Shown: positions 1 to 6,027 of the stretch, piece after piece
Layout: every line of letters starts with the position of its first letter
Numbering within the stretch: the first letter of the stretch is position 1
Assembly: GCA_945906765.1 (NCBI GenBank)
Contig: CAMDRF010000011.1
Span: forward strand, 1-45,700
Origin: Nitrosovibrio sp. Nv4
GTDB taxonomy: Bacteria; Pseudomonadota; Gammaproteobacteria; Burkholderiales; SG8-39
DNA: 45,700 nucleotides
Direction of reading: 5' to 3'
The notes under the pieces: generated by a model
What the model saw: only the letters and a program-made list of their open reading frames with translations
What the model was told of the DNA's origin: nothing
The model's database searches: none
Program-made: the position numbers and the translations under genes

Positions 1-272
1 AAATGCTTGATCTGCTCTTCGAAGGACGGCTCCTGTGCGCCGCGCAGCTCGTGCATCAGCACCCAGCGCCGCGACGAGGTGACCAGCACCTCGCTCGCGC
101 CCGCATGCCGGTGGCGATAGGAATCCTTGCCCGGATGGTCGACATCGAAGGTATGGTGTGCGTGCTTGATCAAGGAAACGCGCAGGCCACGCTTTACGAA
201 CAACGGGATCAGCTTCTCGATAAGCGTGGTTTTCCCGCTGCCTGACCATCCTGCAAAACCGAAGGTTTTCAT
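1..272 (-). CDS. mobB: Molybdopterin-guanine dinucleotide biosynthesis protein B (3' end outside window)
   Basis: Only the first 90 residues are visible because the gene runs off the left edge. They begin MKTFGFAGWSGSGKTT, a Walker A P-loop at residues 8-16, followed by LIKHAHHTFDVDHPGKDS, the conserved GTPase segment of MobB. MobB is a GTP-binding partner of MobA in making the bis-MGD form of the Mo/W cofactor. It lies 22 nt downstream of arsS on the same strand, at the end of the tup block. mobA is elsewhere in the window (31013-31576), so the two partners are split. Family assignment is firm. Whether the missing part is intact cannot be seen. Confidence 0.93.
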   Translation of the reverse strand, partial: MKTFGFAGWSGSGKTTLIEKLIPLFVKRGLRVSLIKHAHHTFDVDHPGKDSYRHRHAGASEVLVTSSRRWVLMHELRGAQEPSFEEQIKH

Positions 273-294: not shown

Positions 295-1317
295 TCAGGC
301 TGTCGCGCCGCCGCAGGAACTGCCCGCGCCCGCGGTGCAGCCCAGGCAATGATCGTCGAAACGAATGCGCCGCCCGAGCGCCTGGTCGAAATTGAAGTCG
401 AAGATGCTGAGCGCCCTGCCGCGCGCGTCCACCGCGTCCATTTCCAGCATCTGGTTGAAGTCGCAGTCGTAGATCCTGCCGTCGTGGCCCACGCTGATCA
501 GACTGCGGCACATCACGCCGTCAGCCGCCGCCGGATTGAAGGACGCGAGCAGTTTCTCCATGTACGCCTCGTACTGACCAGACTTGTCCAAGTGCAGCTT
601 GAAGCGGTTAATCGGCATGTTGGTGATGGTGTAGAGGCGATTGAACACCAGGCCGTATTTGTGCCTGAGTTCGCGCTTGTAATCGGCTTCAAGACCGGCC
701 TGCGCCGCAGGCAGGTACGGACCGACCGGGTTGTACACCAGGTTCAGCGCGAGGCCGCTGCCCTCGACGCCATAGCCAAGCGCATTCAGCCGCTGCATCG
801 CTTCCATGCTCTTTTTGAACACGCCCGAGCCACGCTGCGCATCGGTGAAATATTCCTGGTAGTACGGCAGCGAGGAAATCACCTCGATGCGGTTTTTCGC
901 GAAGAACTGCGGCAGGTATTCCTTGCTCTCGCCGGTCTGCGGATGGCCGTCCAGCTGCACCGTCAGATTGTGCCGCACCATGACGTGCTTGCCCAGCGCC
1001 ACTGCCCGCTCGACGAACCTGTCGAAGCCGGGATGCAGCTCCGGCGCCCCGCCCGTGATGTCGAGTTTCGTGATCTGCGGATGCCGCTCCAGAATCTCGA
1101 GACATTTTGCAACGCCTTCGGGCGAGAGCATCTCCTTGCGCTGGGGCGAGGCGTCCACATGGCAATGCCGGCAGACCTGGTTGCACAGCTTGGTGATGTT
1201 GACCTGCAACGTTTCAATGGAAACCGGCGGCAGCTCGATGCCGCGCGCGCGCAGCAGCCCGACGAAGCCGTAGTTCGACGCCGCAGGCACGACCTTCAGC
1301 TGGACAATGGATTTCAA
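295..1317 (-). CDS. arsS: Arsenosugar-biosynthesis-type radical SAM protein ArsS
   Basis: This 340-residue protein carries a CxxxCxxC radical SAM motif (C45, C49, C52, in LCNQVCRHCH), then the TGGAPELHP glycine-rich SAM segment. The C-terminal half is DUF3641-like, with Cys at MCRSL, YDCDFNQ and DHCLGC that may bind further Fe-S clusters. The architecture fits ArsS, which in known arsenosugar loci transfers a SAM-derived 5'-deoxyadenosyl group to methylated arsenic. I place the start at TTG 1317, whose TTGA overlaps the stop of the upstream AhpD-like gene. No ATG is available in frame between there and the conserved region. No arsM methyltransferase is visible nearby, so the substrate is an inference. 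Confidence 0.85.
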   Translation of the reverse strand: MKSIVQLKVVPAASNYGFVGLLRARGIELPPVSIETLQVNITKLCNQVCRHCHVDASPQRKEMLSPEGVAKCLEILERHPQITKLDITGGAPELHPGFDRFVERAVALGKHVMVRHNLTVQLDGHPQTGESKEYLPQFFAKNRIEVISSLPYYQEYFTDAQRGSGVFKKSMEAMQRLNALGYGVEGSGLALNLVYNPVGPYLPAAQAGLEADYKRELRHKYGLVFNRLYTITNMPINRFKLHLDKSGQYEAYMEKLLASFNPAAADGVMCRSLISVGHDGRIYDCDFNQMLEMDAVDARGRALSIFDFNFDQALGRRIRFDDHCLGCTAGAGSSCGGATA

Positions 1318-1649
1318 AGGACCATCTTCTTCAGGTGGTTCTGCATCTGCACCGAGTGCACCAGCGTGATCCCGGCCTGCATGACCGCCGCAACATGCAC
1401 CGCTTCCATCATCTGCTCGGGGTTGGCCCCCGTCTCGAGACACTGGGTGGTATAGGCATCGATGCAGTAAGGGCATTTCTGGGCGTGCGAGACGGCCAGC
1501 GCGATCAGCGCCTTCTCGCGCTTGGTCAGCGCGCCGTCGGTGCCGGTGACGTTGCCGTAATACCTGAAGAAGTCGTCGGCGAGCGCCTTGGCGTGCTGGC
1601 CGATGTCGCCGAATTTCTTCAGGTCATCCGATTCGTAATAGTTGCTCAT
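1314..1649 (-). CDS. AhpD-like protein associated with arsenosugar synthesis
   Basis: A 111-residue all-helical carboxymuconolactone decarboxylase/AhpD-fold protein with the redox motif C59-P-Y-C62 preceded by SHAQK and followed by IDAYTTQC. Proteins of this subfamily are typically encoded next to ArsS and are called arsenosugar-biosynthesis-associated peroxidase-like proteins. Its role there is not established, though the CxxC suggests thiol-disulfide or peroxidase chemistry. It starts at ATG 1649 behind a GGGGA-type ribosome site. Its TGA overlaps the TTG start of arsS, so the two are probably translated together. The upstream TSUP gene ends 25 nt before it. Confidence 0.85.
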   Translation of the reverse strand: MSNYYESDDLKKFGDIGQHAKALADDFFRYYGNVTGTDGALTKREKALIALAVSHAQKCPYCIDAYTTQCLETGANPEQMMEAVHVAAVMQAGITLVHSVQMQNHLKKMVL

Positions 1650-1674
1650 AGGGGTCCCCTAAGGAAGGCGCAAT

Positions 1675-2421
1675 CTACACCAGAACCATTTTGCCGCCGG
1701 CGATCGCGAGGACCACCGCCAGCACGCGGCGGATGAGCGGATTGGCGAAGCGCCGGCTGCCGTACTCCGCGCCCGCCCATCCCCCCACAAGCACCGCCGC
1801 CATCAGCCACCAGGCATAGTCGGGCGGCGGGGTAGGATTCCTTACAAAGTCGGCCGCCAGCGCCGCGAGCGAATTGACCAGGATGAAGGGCGCGGCGACC
1901 GCGGAAGTCTGCTTGGTTCCCGCCCAACCGAACAGCAGCAGGATCGGGCTGAGGAAAATGCCCCCGCCCACGCCGGTCAGCCCGGAAAGCACGCCCAGCA
2001 CCGCGCCGATCGCCATCGCCAGCGGCACAGGCACCTTGCGCGCAGGCCGAAGTTCCTCGCCGGCCCGCGCGCTCCACCAGAGCTGCCAGCCGGCATACAG
2101 CAGCACCAATCCGACGAGTAACTTGTAGGCCGTGCCTGGCAGGGTGATCGCCCCGCCGAGATAGGCAGCCGGGATCGAGACCACCGCGAACGGCCAGAAA
2201 AGCCCCCAGCGGAAGTGGCCCGCGCGATAGAACTTGACGGTCGCGATGGTCGACACCAGCACGTTGAGTTGGAGTGCGATCGGACGCATTTCCGCAGGTA
2301 CCATCCCGGCGATAGCCATCACCGCAAGGTAGGCTGAGGCTCCGCCGTGGCCAACCGACGCATAGAGGAATGCGGCCACGATCATTCCGGACGCAATCAG
2401 GGCAACGAGGATCGGGTCCAT
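1675..2421 (-). CDS. TSUP (TauE/SafE) family membrane transporter
   Basis: A 248-residue polytopic inner-membrane protein with about eight hydrophobic segments. It has the family's two-fold repeat signatures: ASVGHGGASAYLAVMA near residues 21-36 and SGLTGVGGGIFLSPILL near the middle. TSUP members move sulfite, sulfonates or related organic and sulfur anions. The substrate here is unknown. The context is unusual: the gene follows tupBCA and the ModE-like regulator, and a ModE-type palindrome sits 12-37 nt upstream of its start. That suggests molybdate or tungstate status controls it. Start ATG 2421 has GAGGG at a suitable distance. Confidence 0.85.
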   Translation of the reverse strand: MDPILVALIASGMIVAAFLYASVGHGGASAYLAVMAIAGMVPAEMRPIALQLNVLVSTIATVKFYRAGHFRWGLFWPFAVVSIPAAYLGGAITLPGTAYKLLVGLVLLYAGWQLWWSARAGEELRPARKVPVPLAMAIGAVLGVLSGLTGVGGGIFLSPILLLFGWAGTKQTSAVAAPFILVNSLAALAADFVRNPTPPPDYAWWLMAAVLVGGWAGAEYGSRRFANPLIRRVLAVVLAIAGGKMVLV

Positions 2422-2432
2422 AGCTTTGACCC

Positions 2433-2458
2433 TCGTTATATACCATAAGATATAGCGA
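2433..2458. promoter_or_regulatory. ModE-type operator palindrome
   Basis: On the plus strand the left arm reads TCGTTATAT (2433-2441) and the right arm ATATAGCGA (2450-2458), separated by 8 nt. The right arm reverse-complements to TCGCTATAT, so the arms agree at 8 of 9 positions. This matches the known ModE operator, which has TCG(C/T)TATAT arms facing each other. It lies between the modE-like stop (2461) and the TSUP start (2421). Read on the minus strand it includes TATAAC, a possible -10, so binding would probably repress the TSUP gene and perhaps the genes downstream. Confidence 0.75.
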
Positions 2459-2460
2459 AC

Positions 2461-2823
2461 CTAGCGTGGCTTTTCCGTCTTCCGCAATTTGGCCTCAAAT
2501 CGCCTCAGATCAGCCGCAATTGCCGCCGAAGCCTTGCCCTCCATCGCTCGAAACTGGGCCACCAGCCTCTGCCCGAAAGAGGTTACGGTCGCTCCGCCGC
2601 CACGTGATCCTCCTGTCGCAGTCGTTACCACGGGTTCGTCAAAACTCTTATTGAGCCCTTCCACCAGTTGCCAAGCGCGGCGATACGACATCCCCATCGC
2701 TCGCGCCGCGGCGGATATTGATCCAGTCTGCCCGATGCGTTCGACTAGCTCGGCCTTGCCGGGTCCCATGGCGGGCGCTGAGCGGCCCAGCACTCTCAGT
2801 GTCAACCCACGATAGCGCCGCAT
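2461..2823 (-). CDS. ModE-like winged-helix regulator lacking the molbindin domain
   Basis: A 120-residue protein consisting of little more than the ModE/LysR-type N-terminal winged helix. The helix-turn-helix lies around residues 34-58 (GSISAAARAMGMSYRRAWQL), followed by the wing region with SRGGGATVTSFG. Classical ModE carries C-terminal TOBE/Mop domains that bind molybdate or tungstate. They are absent here, so the protein either cannot sense the metal directly or acts with a partner. The start overlaps the end of tupA by 22 nt, showing tight coupling with the importer. The best candidate target is the palindrome at 2433-2458, immediately behind its stop. Confidence 0.85.
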   Translation of the reverse strand: MRRYRGLTLRVLGRSAPAMGPGKAELVERIGQTGSISAAARAMGMSYRRAWQLVEGLNKSFDEPVVTTATGGSRGGGATVTSFGQRLVAQFRAMEGKASAAIAADLRRFEAKLRKTEKPR

Positions 2824-3629
2824 TTCACCCCCCCTGCGTTGGGGACGAATAGCCGCTCACCCCCAATCTTGTAGTCGGAGATCGCTCTCTGGCCTTCCGG
2901 CGAGACTACCCAGTCGATGAACGCCTGCCCCAGTTCCTTCTTGACGCTCGGATGCTTCGCCGGATTCACCAGAATGATGCCGTATTGATTGAACAGGCGC
3001 CGGTCTCCCTCCACCACAACAGTGAGTTCTCCACGATTCTTGAACGACAGCCACGTGCCCCGGTCGGTGAGTGCGTAGGCGTTCATTCCCGAGGCAGTGT
3101 TGAGCGTCGGGCCCATGCCGGAGCCGGTATCGCGGTACCAGGGTCCTTTGGCCTTCGCGATGTCGATACCGGCGGCTGTCCAGAGATCCAACTCCGCGAA
3201 ATGAGTGCCGCTCTTGTCGCCGCGCGAGGCGAATGGCGCCTGTGCCGCTCTGACCTTCTGCAGCGCCGCGACGATGTCCTTGCTCCCGGCGACTTTCGCC
3301 GGATCCGATTTTGGCCCGACCAGCACAAAGTCGTTGTACATGACCTCGAAGCGCCGCACGCCGTAGCCTTCGGCGACGAACTTCTCCTCGAGCAACTTCG
3401 CGTGCACCAACACCACATCCGCATCGCCCCGTTTGCCCATGTCGAGCGACTGCCCCGTGCCGAGCGCCACCACGCGCACCTGGATGCCGGTTTTCTTCTC
3501 GAATAACGGCAGCAGGTGCCTGAACAACCCCGACTGCTCGGTCGACGTTGTGGAAGCCACGGTAATGAAGCGTTGTTGTGCTTCTATTGAAAAAGAAAGA
3601 AACAAGGAAAGCGCTAACAGCAATCTCAT
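2802..3629 (-). CDS. tupA: Tungstate ABC transporter, periplasmic binding protein TupA
   Basis: This 275-residue protein has a short Sec signal peptide (MRLLLALSLFLSFSIEA) and the TupA hallmark STTSTEQSGLF at residues 26-36, where consecutive Ser/Thr contribute oxyanion contacts in this family. Later segments such as ASRGDKSGTH and YRDTGSGMGPTL are also typical of TupA rather than ModA or WtpA. I chose ATG 3629, which makes a TGATG overlap with the tupC stop, over the GTG nine bases upstream. Tup systems are selective for tungstate, but specificity over molybdate cannot be read from sequence. Confidence 0.9.
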   Translation of the reverse strand: MRLLLALSLFLSFSIEAQQRFITVASTTSTEQSGLFRHLLPLFEKKTGIQVRVVALGTGQSLDMGKRGDADVVLVHAKLLEEKFVAEGYGVRRFEVMYNDFVLVGPKSDPAKVAGSKDIVAALQKVRAAQAPFASRGDKSGTHFAELDLWTAAGIDIAKAKGPWYRDTGSGMGPTLNTASGMNAYALTDRGTWLSFKNRGELTVVVEGDRRLFNQYGIILVNPAKHPSVKKELGQAFIDWVVSPEGQRAISDYKIGGERLFVPNAGGVKCGAIVG

Positions 3630-4357
3630 CAGACCCACGGAAGCTCTCCCTTGACGAATGCCGCCGCTTCGGTGGAGGTGGGTTGCCTGAAAAATGCGTC
3701 CACCGAAGCGCGTTCGACCAGACGCCCCTGGTGAATGAACAGCACCTCGTCGCCGAGGCGCCGCGCCTGGCCGAGGTTGTGCGTTGACATGACGATCTTG
3801 GTCCCCGATGCATCGAAAGCCTTGATCACGTTCTCGATTTCGCGCGTCGCGCCCGGATCCAGGTTTGCGGTCGGTTCATCCAGAAACAGCACTTCGGGAT
3901 GCAGCGCCCAGGCGCGCGCGAGCGCGAGGCGCTGCTGCTCGCCGCCCGAGAGCACGCGCGCGGGCCGCTGCGCGACCTCCGCGAGGCCCACCTCGCGCAG
4001 CGCATCCATCGCCTGCGCTTCGCGCCCGGCCGCCGGCACGCGCGCGAGTTCCAGCGCGTAAAGAATGTTGGCGAGCGCCGAACGGCGCAGCATCACCGGG
4101 CGCTGGAACACCATCGCCTGCGCGCGCCGCACGCGCTCCGCGCCCTGCCCGTGCCACGCGATTTCTCCCGAGGTGGGCCGCAGCAGGCCGTGCATCAGGC
4201 GCATCAGGACGCTTTTCCCGGCGCCGTTGGCGCCCAGGATGATCGTGGTCGGGCCTGCCGCGATCTCCGACGAGATGCCGTCGATGATGTTGCGCCCGCC
4301 CGCCATGTAGCGCACCTCGCGCAGCGTCAGGGGAAGGATGCCGTGGGCGCCGGACAT
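3629..4357 (-). CDS. tupC: Tungstate ABC transporter ATPase TupC
   Basis: A 242-residue ABC ATPase with Walker A GANGAGKS (42-49), signature LSGGEQQ (136-142), Walker B VLFLDEP (156-162) and the H-loop histidine in STHN (about 193). It would power import through TupB. The ATG at 4357 overlaps the tupB stop by one base, and its own stop overlaps tupA in the same way. The order B-C-A puts the binding protein last, which differs from the usual A-B-C order. No TOBE domain follows the ATPase core, unlike ModC. Confidence 0.9.
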   Translation of the reverse strand: MSGAHGILPLTLREVRYMAGGRNIIDGISSEIAAGPTTIILGANGAGKSVLMRLMHGLLRPTSGEIAWHGQGAERVRRAQAMVFQRPVMLRRSALANILYALELARVPAAGREAQAMDALREVGLAEVAQRPARVLSGGEQQRLALARAWALHPEVLFLDEPTANLDPGATREIENVIKAFDASGTKIVMSTHNLGQARRLGDEVLFIHQGRLVERASVDAFFRQPTSTEAAAFVKGELPWV

Positions 4358-5007
4358 CAGCCGTAGCGCCGCTGCGCGGCTTCCTTGATGAGGTGGGCCG
4401 CCGCATTCAGCGCAATCACCAGCGCGATCAGCACGAATCCGAGCGACAGGGCGAGCGGCAGGTCGCCCTTCGAGGTCTCGAGCGCGATGGTGGTGGTCAT
4501 CACCCGGGTGACGCCGTCGATGTTGCCGCCGACGATGATCACCGCACCCACCTCGGCGAGCGCGCGCCCGAGCCCCGCCAGCACTGTGGTCACCAGCGAG
4601 AACCGGATATCCCAGACCAGCGTCAGCGCCGCGCGCAGACCGTGCGCCCCCAGCGAACGCAGCTGTTCCTCGTACTCGACCCACGCGTCCTCCACCGACT
4701 GGCGGCAGAGCGCGGCAATGATCGGCAGCACCAGGAAGGTCTGCGCGATCACCATCGCGGGAGGTGTGAACAGCAGGCCGAGTTCTCCCAGCGGGCCCGC
4801 GCGCGACAGCAGCAGGTAGACCAGCAGGCCCACCACCACCGGCGGCAGGCCCATGAGCGCGTTCAGCAGCACGATCAGCGCGCGCCGTCCCGGAAATCTC
4901 CCGACCGCGATCGCCGCGCCGAGCGGCAACCCGAGCAGCGTCGCCAGCAGCACCGCCGAGAGGCTCACCGCCAGGCTGAGCGCAACAATCCCGCCAAGCT
5001 CGGACAT
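4357..5007 (-). CDS. tupB: Tungstate ABC transporter permease TupB
   Basis: A 216-residue permease of the ModB/CysT superfamily with five to six hydrophobic segments. The cytoplasmic coupling loop, YEEQLRSLGAHGLRAALTLV, resembles the EAA motif that docks onto the ATPase. Segments such as LLNALMGLPPVVVGLLVYLL and GRALAEVGAVIIVGGNIDG are typical of TupB. It is the first gene of the minus-strand block, and the 237-nt region upstream separates it from divergent chrB. The start is ATG 5007; a purine-rich stretch precedes it on the minus strand. Confidence 0.9.
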   Translation of the reverse strand: MSELGGIVALSLAVSLSAVLLATLLGLPLGAAIAVGRFPGRRALIVLLNALMGLPPVVVGLLVYLLLSRAGPLGELGLLFTPPAMVIAQTFLVLPIIAALCRQSVEDAWVEYEEQLRSLGAHGLRAALTLVWDIRFSLVTTVLAGLGRALAEVGAVIIVGGNIDGVTRVMTTTIALETSKGDLPLALSLGFVLIALVIALNAAAHLIKEAAQRRYG

Positions 5008-5244
5008 CTGATTTTTCTCTTGTATTTTTACCGACGAAATATGGCTCTATTAGAGCAGATGCCGACATGGGATCCGGCAAGACTCCGCATTTGGGCCGGG
5101 GCCCTGGCTCTGGCAGTGGCTTGACAACAGCGCGCCTTTGCGCGCATCCTTCGCGCCTCGGGGAACGCAGGCTCCCGGGGCAATTGCCTTACCCAACAAG
5201 ACGCCGGTGCGTCCAAGCTCTGCAGGACTCTTAAGGAGAGAGCC
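5008..5244. promoter_or_regulatory. Divergent tupB / chrB control region
   Basis: This 237-nt intergenic region is the largest in the window. On the chrB side it has TTGACA at 5121-5126, directly followed by a perfect hairpin GCGCGC-CTTT-GCGCGC (5130-5145), a second small G/C stem near 5160-5185, and the chrB ribosome site AAGGAGAG just before 5245. The tupB side is AT-rich (5011-5060), consistent with a promoter. It holds the half-site-like word CGAAATAT but no convincing full ModE palindrome. The hairpin in the spacer could be an operator, since ChrB proteins can act as chromate-sensing regulators. Confidence 0.4.
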
Positions 5245-6027
5245 ATGGACGCACCCGCAATCTCAGTAGCTTCCCTACGCCAGTCTCAGGCATCCGCGCG
5301 GCCGCCGCTCGTCATCGACGTGCGCAAGGGCCCCACGTTTCTCGGCGCCCCCGACCTGATCCGCGGCGCGCTGCGGCGCGACCCGCAATGCGTTGCCGAG
5401 TGGGGCAAGACACTGCCCGGCGAAGCCGACGTCGTCGTCTACTGCGTCCATGGCCACGAAGTCAGCCAAGGCGCCGCGAAGGCGTTGGGCGCCCACTACC
5501 TTGAAGGCGGCATCGAGGCTTGGCGTACTTGCGGCGGAGAACTGTTCGGCAAACCTGAAGGCGCAAGCTCCCGCTGGATAACCCGTGAGCGACCCAAGAT
5601 CGATCGCATCGCCTGCCCCTGGCTAGTGCAGCGGTTCATCGATCCGGATGCCGAGTTCCTCTACGTACCGACGCCCGAGGTGAAGGCAGTGGCCGCGGAG
5701 CGTCAGGCAGTTCCCTACGACATCCCTGGCGTCGAATTCACGCACGAGGGCGATCTATGCAGCTTCGATGCATTCATTGCTCGGTACCGGCTGAAGGACC
5801 CGGCGCTGGATGAACTCGCGCTCATCGTGCGTGGTGCGGACACAGGGCGGCTCGATCTTGCCCCTCAGTGCGCCGGTCTCGCGGCTTTCTCACTTGGTTT
5901 ATCTCTTAACTTCAAAAATGACCACGAGATGCTGGAGCGGGGCATGACCATGTACGACGCGCTTTACCGCTGGTGCAAGGAAGGAAAGGCGGAGACGCAC
6001 ACGTGGAACCCGAAGGCCTGCAAATGA
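5245..6027 (+). CDS. chrB: Chromate resistance protein ChrB with N-terminal rhodanese domain
   Basis: This 260-residue protein has a rhodanese-like domain at about residues 20-100, with the active-site loop YCVHGHEVSQ containing C67. It is joined to a ChrB C-terminal domain starting SRWITRERPKIDRIACPWL (about 109-127). ChrB is needed for full chromate resistance and acts as a chromate-responsive regulator in some bacteria. The rhodanese half suggests sulfur-transfer or reductive chemistry. The gene begins at ATG 5245 behind AAGGAGAG. Its TGA overlaps the next ATG, starting a coupled chrB / SOD-rhodanese / chrA operon. Confidence 0.9.
   Translation: MDAPAISVASLRQSQASARPPLVIDVRKGPTFLGAPDLIRGALRRDPQCVAEWGKTLPGEADVVVYCVHGHEVSQGAAKALGAHYLEGGIEAWRTCGGELFGKPEGASSRWITRERPKIDRIACPWLVQRFIDPDAEFLYVPTPEVKAVAAERQAVPYDIPGVEFTHEGDLCSFDAFIARYRLKDPALDELALIVRGADTGRLDLAPQCAGLAAFSLGLSLNFKNDHEMLERGMTMYDALYRWCKEGKAETHTWNPKACK

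Follow-up and report, generated by a model that had tools for sequence, protein, structure and literature searches.

The TSUP permease gene behind tupBCA and modE in this window (the whole 45,700-nucleotide stretch of Nitrosovibrio sp. Nv4 DNA analysed here) probably encodes a secondary molybdate uptake carrier that is repressed by ModE and replaces ModABC, a reading to which we assign a probability of about 0.64. The genes are arranged on the minus strand in the order tupBCA-modE-TSUP-AhpD-ArsS-mobB (Table 1), with a ModE-type box in the modE-TSUP gap. In the mechanism that we infer, the HTH-only ModE would bind this palindrome and, when molybdate (or finished Moco) is plentiful, would switch off TSUP together with the downstream AhpD-ArsS-mobB genes. 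TSUP would import molybdate in place of ModABC, and tungstate uptake would keep going, since tupBCA and modE lie ahead of the box. Repression, rather than activation, is suggested by the position of the box and by the silencing of modABC that is usual for ModE.

Table 1. Features of the tupBCA-modE-TSUP locus, numbered by position in the window
Feature	Position	Strand	Basis
tupB, ABC permease	4357..5007	-	NF041773 1.3e-44, 152.7 bits (below cut-off 320); NF038017 above cut-off
tupC, ABC ATPase, without TOBE match	3629..4357	-	ORF and domain profile matches
tupA, tungstate-type periplasmic binding protein	2802..3638, likely start 3629	-	NF041772 8e-69, 231.9 bits (below cut-off 400)
ModE-like regulator, HTH domain only, 120 aa	2461..2823	-	TIGR00637 2e-24; PDB 2ijl 1.3e-25
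Putative ModE-type operator palindrome, modE/TSUP gap	2433..2458	.	Sequence pattern; kept in relatives retaining modE
TSUP (TauE/SafE, PF01925) permease, 248 aa; proposed molybdate importer	1675..2421	-	Pfam TauE 6e-34
AhpD-like 'arsenosugar biosynthesis-associated peroxidase-like' gene, downstream of TSUP	1314..1649	-	TIGR04169 above cut-off
ArsS radical SAM protein (DUF3641), behind TSUP; start uncertain	295..1323	-	TIGR04167 above cut-off
mobB, Moco nucleotide biosynthesis adaptor, runs past window edge	3..272	-	PF03205 3.3e-35

A sequence-only reading of this DNA had placed a palindrome by the TSUP start, directly behind a 120-residue ModE-like gene that follows tupBCA, and the letters and open reading frames agree. 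The palindrome reads TCGTTATAT-ACCATAAG-ATATAGCGA (pattern TCGTTATAT-N8-ATATAGCGA); it is imperfect, its arms being complementary at 8 of 9 positions, and its core TCGNTATAT-N8-ATATANCGA has zero mismatches. The modE-TSUP gap is 39 bases long; the palindrome fills 26 of them, and the TSUP start codon lies 11 bases beyond it. Against the E. coli ModE consensus ATCGNTATATA-N6-TATATANCGAT, taken from an excerpt of PMC545781, it matches 17 of 20 letters, the runner-up in the window matching 13. Together with the conservation of the box alongside modE (see below), this match bears out the same reading's proposal of a ModE-type operator directly before a Mo/W-linked TSUP. The full 26-mer pattern at up to three mismatches gave zero matches in 100 dinucleotide shuffles of the window; a looser 24-mer at the same tolerance gave 5 matches versus 6.3 expected, only that at 2433-2458 being mismatch-free. 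In the genome from which the window comes (3.1 Mb, 149 contigs), this is the sole site with at most two mismatches, with one other at three, and no second box near tupB was found within the window at up to three mismatches of the full pattern.

The modE gene overlaps the end of tupA by 22 bases. TupA and TupB of the window fall below their NCBIfam equivalog cut-offs (Table 1), and homology to TupABC makes the Tup genes tungstate-type, with a putative specificity for W. TSUP scores 118.2 bits against the PF01925 gathering score of 32.6 and belongs to this Pfam family, which it shares with TauE/SafE sulfite exporters and CysZ-type sulfate carriers. Unlike these, neither TSUP nor any of the five relatives tested reached an NCBIfam equivalog cut-off, and its context is one of Mo, Moco and nitrogenase.

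Within the family, TSUP is interchanged with modABC and MOT1, which are known molybdate transporters, in one slot. We sampled 98 family genomes, 23 of which hold a locus with a close TSUP (a score above 340 bits; G011, in which the gene is fragmented, was excluded). The conservation in relatives proposed as a check by the sequence-only reading holds, with tupA upstream within 1.5 kb in 23/23 loci and the box tracking modE; mobB is visible in 22 loci and is followed by moeA in many with enough flank. In sister genomes, the slot behind modE and the box is filled by modABC (L067, L069, L070, L077, L078, L080) or by MOT1 (L085, PF16983 193.5 bits; L086; L087). Both belong to protein families different from that of TSUP, which comes without a dedicated binding protein or ATPase.

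ModABC is nearly absent from TSUP genomes. In the family sample, modB passed its cut-off in 37/98 genomes, and strong MOT1 (over 60 bits, our own threshold) was found in 22/98. Only one of the 23 close-TSUP genomes has modB (G090) and none has strong MOT1, whereas one or the other occurs in 49 of the 75 remaining genomes (one-sided Fisher, 9.5e-8), leaving 26 with neither modB nor true MOT1. Many family genomes are incomplete, and the exclusion test within genera is weak: with labels permuted within genera, one overlap was seen against 3.6 expected (P 0.02), and among genomes at least 90% complete, zero against 1.3 (P 0.19). TSUP genomes and modB genomes are both present, with zero overlap, in genera g1, g5, g15 and g17; genus g3 holds the overlap genome G090. 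At Pfam's own cut-off, MOT1 is found in 41/98 genomes, including 7 of the 23 TSUP genomes. The 8 weak matches in those 7 score far better as SulP sulfate permeases (3) or BenE benzoate transporters (5), so the 60-bit threshold is fair. In the window's genome, modB gave no match over the cut-off, and the lone weak MOT1 match is a SulP-type protein. More distant TSUPs (44-48%) coexist with MOT1 or modB in G068, G073, G077 and G095. An order-level search of 300 genomes detected TSUP at E 1e-20 or better in 20, three of them from the window's own genus. Tested genes lie within 1.5 kb in only five of the 18 out-of-family loci of that order (mobB in L166, modE and mobB in L168, tup in L169 and L172, modC-like in L179), so there the slot type is largely characteristic of the family.

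Across phyla, TSUP relatives recur in a Moco and nitrogenase context. A GTDB genome scan with the TSUP alignment gave relatives in many phyla, and the best 80 of 578 were analysed; the closest among the matches listed is L180, a Burkholderiales MAG (88% identity). Neighbours were searched by tblastn with seeds taken partly from those same cross-phylum loci. Among the best 80 of 578, minus L180, a Moco, modE/tup or nifDKEN-type gene lies no more than 3 kb away at 30/79 loci, and 49/79 carry none of the tested genes within this distance; near TSUP, the density of tested genes is 0.27 per kb within the first kb and drops to 0.01 per kb at a distance of 6-7 kb. In Nitrospirota, three loci (L212, L230, L232) have TSUP flanked on both sides by nitrogenase-type genes, and such genes also occur within 3 kb in deltaproteobacterial L216 and L234 and in archaeal L185, L187 and L199 (31-36% identity), a context that points to molybdenum rather than tungsten. 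By Pfam, the immediate upstream neighbours in the best 80 of 578 include MoCF_biosynth (7/77), MoeA_C (6/77) and MoaA-type Mob_synth_C (4/77), ABC ATPases being as frequent as MoCF domains (7/77); the immediate downstream neighbours include nitrogenase (3/77), MobA-like (3/77) and NifQ (1/77) domains. The modE-box-TSUP arrangement recurs in an Opitutus-type genome (L236, Verrucomicrobiota), and an Emticicia-type genome (L252, Bacteroidota) has box-TSUP followed by modE.

To what extent these relatives occur with ModABC was assessed in 49 of the 78 cross-phylum genomes, L252 excluded. The modB cut-off was passed in 4/49 of these genomes from the best 80 of 578 (L206, L233, L238, L248): 2 of the 28 picked as Mo- or nif-linked (27 with a gene within 3 kb, plus L224 at 3.6 kb) versus 2 of the 21 others. 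In twelve further genomes modB matches fell short of the cut-off, 7 of them lying in adjacent pairs, the arrangement expected of sulfate permeases; some may be divergent ModB proteins. According to an excerpt of PMC6147048, ModABC is present in 88.8% of Mo-using bacteria, a figure from a sample of different make-up and thus only a yardstick for 4/49. In a second sample, of 395 genomes from Bacteroidota, the phylum to which L244 belongs, TSUP was found at E 1e-30 or better in 72 and modB over the cut-off in 132, with both in 1 versus 24 expected. This lone co-occurrence (G616) involves a 32% TSUP, and with TSUP at 1e-50, modB is found in 0/48. Among the best 30 Bacteroidota loci, one being the query's own, 26 have moeA, mobA, moaA, moaE or modE within 1.5 kb (moeA in 25, mobA in 15, modE in 3). 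The exclusion in Bacteroidota may partly follow clade lines. The genomes that hold both TSUP and modB (G090, L206, L233, L238, L248) can be used to ask whether the two are redundant or specialised.

From these data, we lean modestly towards a broader proposal, in which this TSUP subfamily, from Burkholderiales to Bacteroidota, Planctomycetota, Nitrospirota and archaea, would form a separate, dedicated class of molybdate importers that replaces ModABC, serves both Moco and nitrogenase, and is controlled by ModE where ModE is kept. Such a class would fill part of the gap left by Mo-using bacteria with no known molybdate transporter, which an excerpt of PMC6147048 puts at 278/3683, adding that there may be further uptake systems. 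A testable candidate that comes with its regulator, its operator and a Moco/nitrogenase setting would alter the way Mo use is deduced from genomes, and would correct 'sulfite exporter' annotations.

Other substrates and directions were weighed against molybdate uptake. TSUP could be a ModE-switched exporter that vents excess molybdate or tungstate brought in by Tup: all 23 close family loci carry tup beside TSUP, so export could balance uptake, and there is the precedent of TunR, with TSUP genes reportedly predicted to be repressed in Mo/W homeostasis. TauE is also described as a sulfite exporter in the title of a work cited by PMC5840216. We nevertheless regard export as unlikely, because TSUP holds the slot taken elsewhere by modABC or MOT1, because TSUP genomes nearly always have neither of these, a loss for which an exporter would not compensate, and because TSUP relatives lie among nitrogenase-type genes. 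Carriage of tungstate, one of the roles suggested by the sequence-only reading, would make TSUP mainly a partner of Tup in supplying W enzymes. TSUP remains with tup even where modE is lost, and the gene order seen in the family is similar to that of the moeA1-mobB-tupBCA tungsten cluster that an excerpt of PMC13197769 describes in Methylorubrum extorquens. This role is improbable: Tup is, by homology, already a W importer, Moco and nitrogenase contexts without tup occur across phyla, and PF00174 (sulfite-oxidase-type) molybdoenzyme matches are found in 14/23 TSUP genomes (none in 9; two in the window's genome). Molybdate is more likely than tungstate for three reasons: modABC or MOT1 fills this slot elsewhere, genomes seldom combine TSUP with ModABC, and TSUP relatives lie in Moco and nitrogenase-type clusters.

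A sulfur compound (sulfite, thiosulfate or sulfide), moved for the assembly of the Moco dithiolene or of metal clusters with ModE responding to cofactor demand, would fit the family annotation of TSUP, and Moco and FeMo-co both contain sulfur. The TSUP family is generally tied to sulfur compounds in an excerpt of PMC5840216. Such a role is more doubtful still, since it leaves unexplained both the alternation with modABC and MOT1 and the absence of ModABC. Contextual support for the clearance of sulfite or thio-oxyanions, put forward by the sequence-only reading, was not found in the loci analysed. We conclude that TSUP is probably neither a sulfite exporter nor chiefly a tungstate carrier, and retain molybdate uptake as the preferred function.

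The distribution of the box ties it to TSUP and to ModE. Sites with at most two mismatches occur in 30/98 family genomes, versus 7 for a reversed control pattern, and 32 of 33 sites were inspected (the second G086 site was left out). Eighteen of these have 0-1 mismatch: 9 precede TSUP, one of them (L074) being shared with a divergent moeA, 8 precede modA-like genes (34-100% to seeds), and the remaining one lies 123 bases behind modE, close to a contig end. The 14 sites with two mismatches comprise 3 before MOT1, 3 before modA, 1 by modE, 1 by a tupA paralog, 1 between moeA and modE, and 5 with none of the tested genes within 1 kb, so these weak sites include chance matches.

The box is conserved together with modE. 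A short modE is absent from 13/23 family TSUP loci, and a box with at most three mismatches lies near the TSUP start in 10/10 loci with a short modE versus 1/13 without (Fisher 9.6e-6). At most two mismatches, the counts are 7/10 versus 0/13 (Fisher 4.9e-4), the 23 loci being related rather than 23 independent events. Decayed copies of the box are present at an equal distance in L104 and L119, and one half survives in L110; they look like operators left after loss of the regulator. A family-wide ModE search of the 13 TSUP genomes without short modE gave no match in 4 and matches only in 334-451-residue frames in 9. That the box controls modE or nothing, with TSUP as a passenger, could be argued from its position inside a run of genes and from a consensus scan of 1500-5300 that gave no sigma-70-like promoter, yet is very improbable given that the box ends 8-14 bases ahead of the TSUP match in 7/9 family sites, lies between moeA and TSUP in L074, where modE is located ~1 kb behind TSUP, and also precedes TSUP in Verrucomicrobiota (L236) and Bacteroidota (L252).

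The regulator has a ModE-type winged HTH, with a match to E. coli ModE (1o7l, 3e-12) besides those listed in Table 1. Its TIGR00637 score of 85.5 bits is below the cut-off of 98.5, a value reached by none of the 98 family genomes. No TOBE domain was found in its 120 residues by Pfam at E 0.01, as the sequence-only reading had indicated; the C-terminal Mop/TOBE metal-binding domains place full-length ModE proteins apart from this one. The HTH is of the ModE/LysR type and not the recombinase-type DNA-binding domain of TunR. As the regulator has no TOBE domain, metal would be sensed via a partner or an unrecognised site. An HTH-only ModE has been solved as PDB 2ijl. An excerpt of PMC545781 reports such proteins from two Desulfovibrio species and from D. 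psychrophila, and calls metal sensing by the Desulfovibrio proteins not clear. The compact systems described here are suited to asking how an HTH-only ModE senses metal. Elsewhere in the family, L068 encodes, at 2305-3504 (-) and divergent from tupB, a long regulator that joins a ModE-type HTH to a MoeA-fusion-like C-terminal part.

Several elements of this system are already known, namely HTH-only ModE proteins, ModE boxes, modE beside tupABC and moeA-mobB-tupBCA clusters; modE adjoins tupABC in Geobacter bemidjiensis, according to an excerpt of PMC2996986. The operator type and the HTH family are those of ModE regulons. However, the usual target of these regulons is modABC, whereas here it would be the TSUP gene, and the operator is placed after tupBCA, with the regulator gene on one side and the target on the other. 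For a TSUP gene under a Mo/W regulator, there is a precedent in the TunR regulators of sulfate reducers, which have reportedly been predicted to repress TSUP genes in Mo/W homeostasis, and which carry a recombinase-type DNA-binding domain and recognise a different site. TSUP-family transporter genes under a Mo/W regulator would thus be common to both systems, which differ in that the regulator here has a ModE-type HTH and TSUP stands in place of modABC. In the titles, abstract openings and passages searched, all from open-licence PMC papers, we found no mention of a TSUP subfamily taking over from ModABC or being located among nif genes.

In a quick tree of 75 rows, in which 30/72 inner branches are open, the close TSUPs of the family group together in a single clade (SH-aLRT 100), next to a mostly Moco-linked clade (17/23 rows; support of 87 for the joining branch). 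Another tup-linked clade (L126, L127, L129, L168, L169, L172) is separate, and the nif-linked rows require 3 changes. The AlphaFold model of the window's TSUP displays ten helices and is confident (mean pLDDT 93.1, pTM 0.90); two short helices, at 28-37 and 154-163, adjoin the conserved motifs VGHxGASxY and GLTGxGGGIFLSP. No solved TSUP relative was found by sequence, and a fold search against solved structures gave no match at E 0.001, the best being BacA at 0.014; since these fold matches are weak, we make no argument from a pocket.

Three further observations concern neighbouring genes. The AhpD-like and ArsS radical SAM pair, located between TSUP and mobB in the window (295-1649, -), follows TSUP in 6/23 family loci, adjoins modB-like genes in L075 and L076, and adjoins modE in L065; the 'arsenosugar' names of these genes may hide a Mo-linked role. 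In L252 (4213-6846), two ModE boxes lie by the start of a divergent TonB-dependent receptor ORF and upstream of TSUP, a hint that ModE may control Mo uptake across the outer membrane in Bacteroidota. Finally, divergent from tupB in the window, a chrB-b RNA (RF03086) is located at 5158-5223 (+), ahead of ChrB/rhodanese-type chromate genes.
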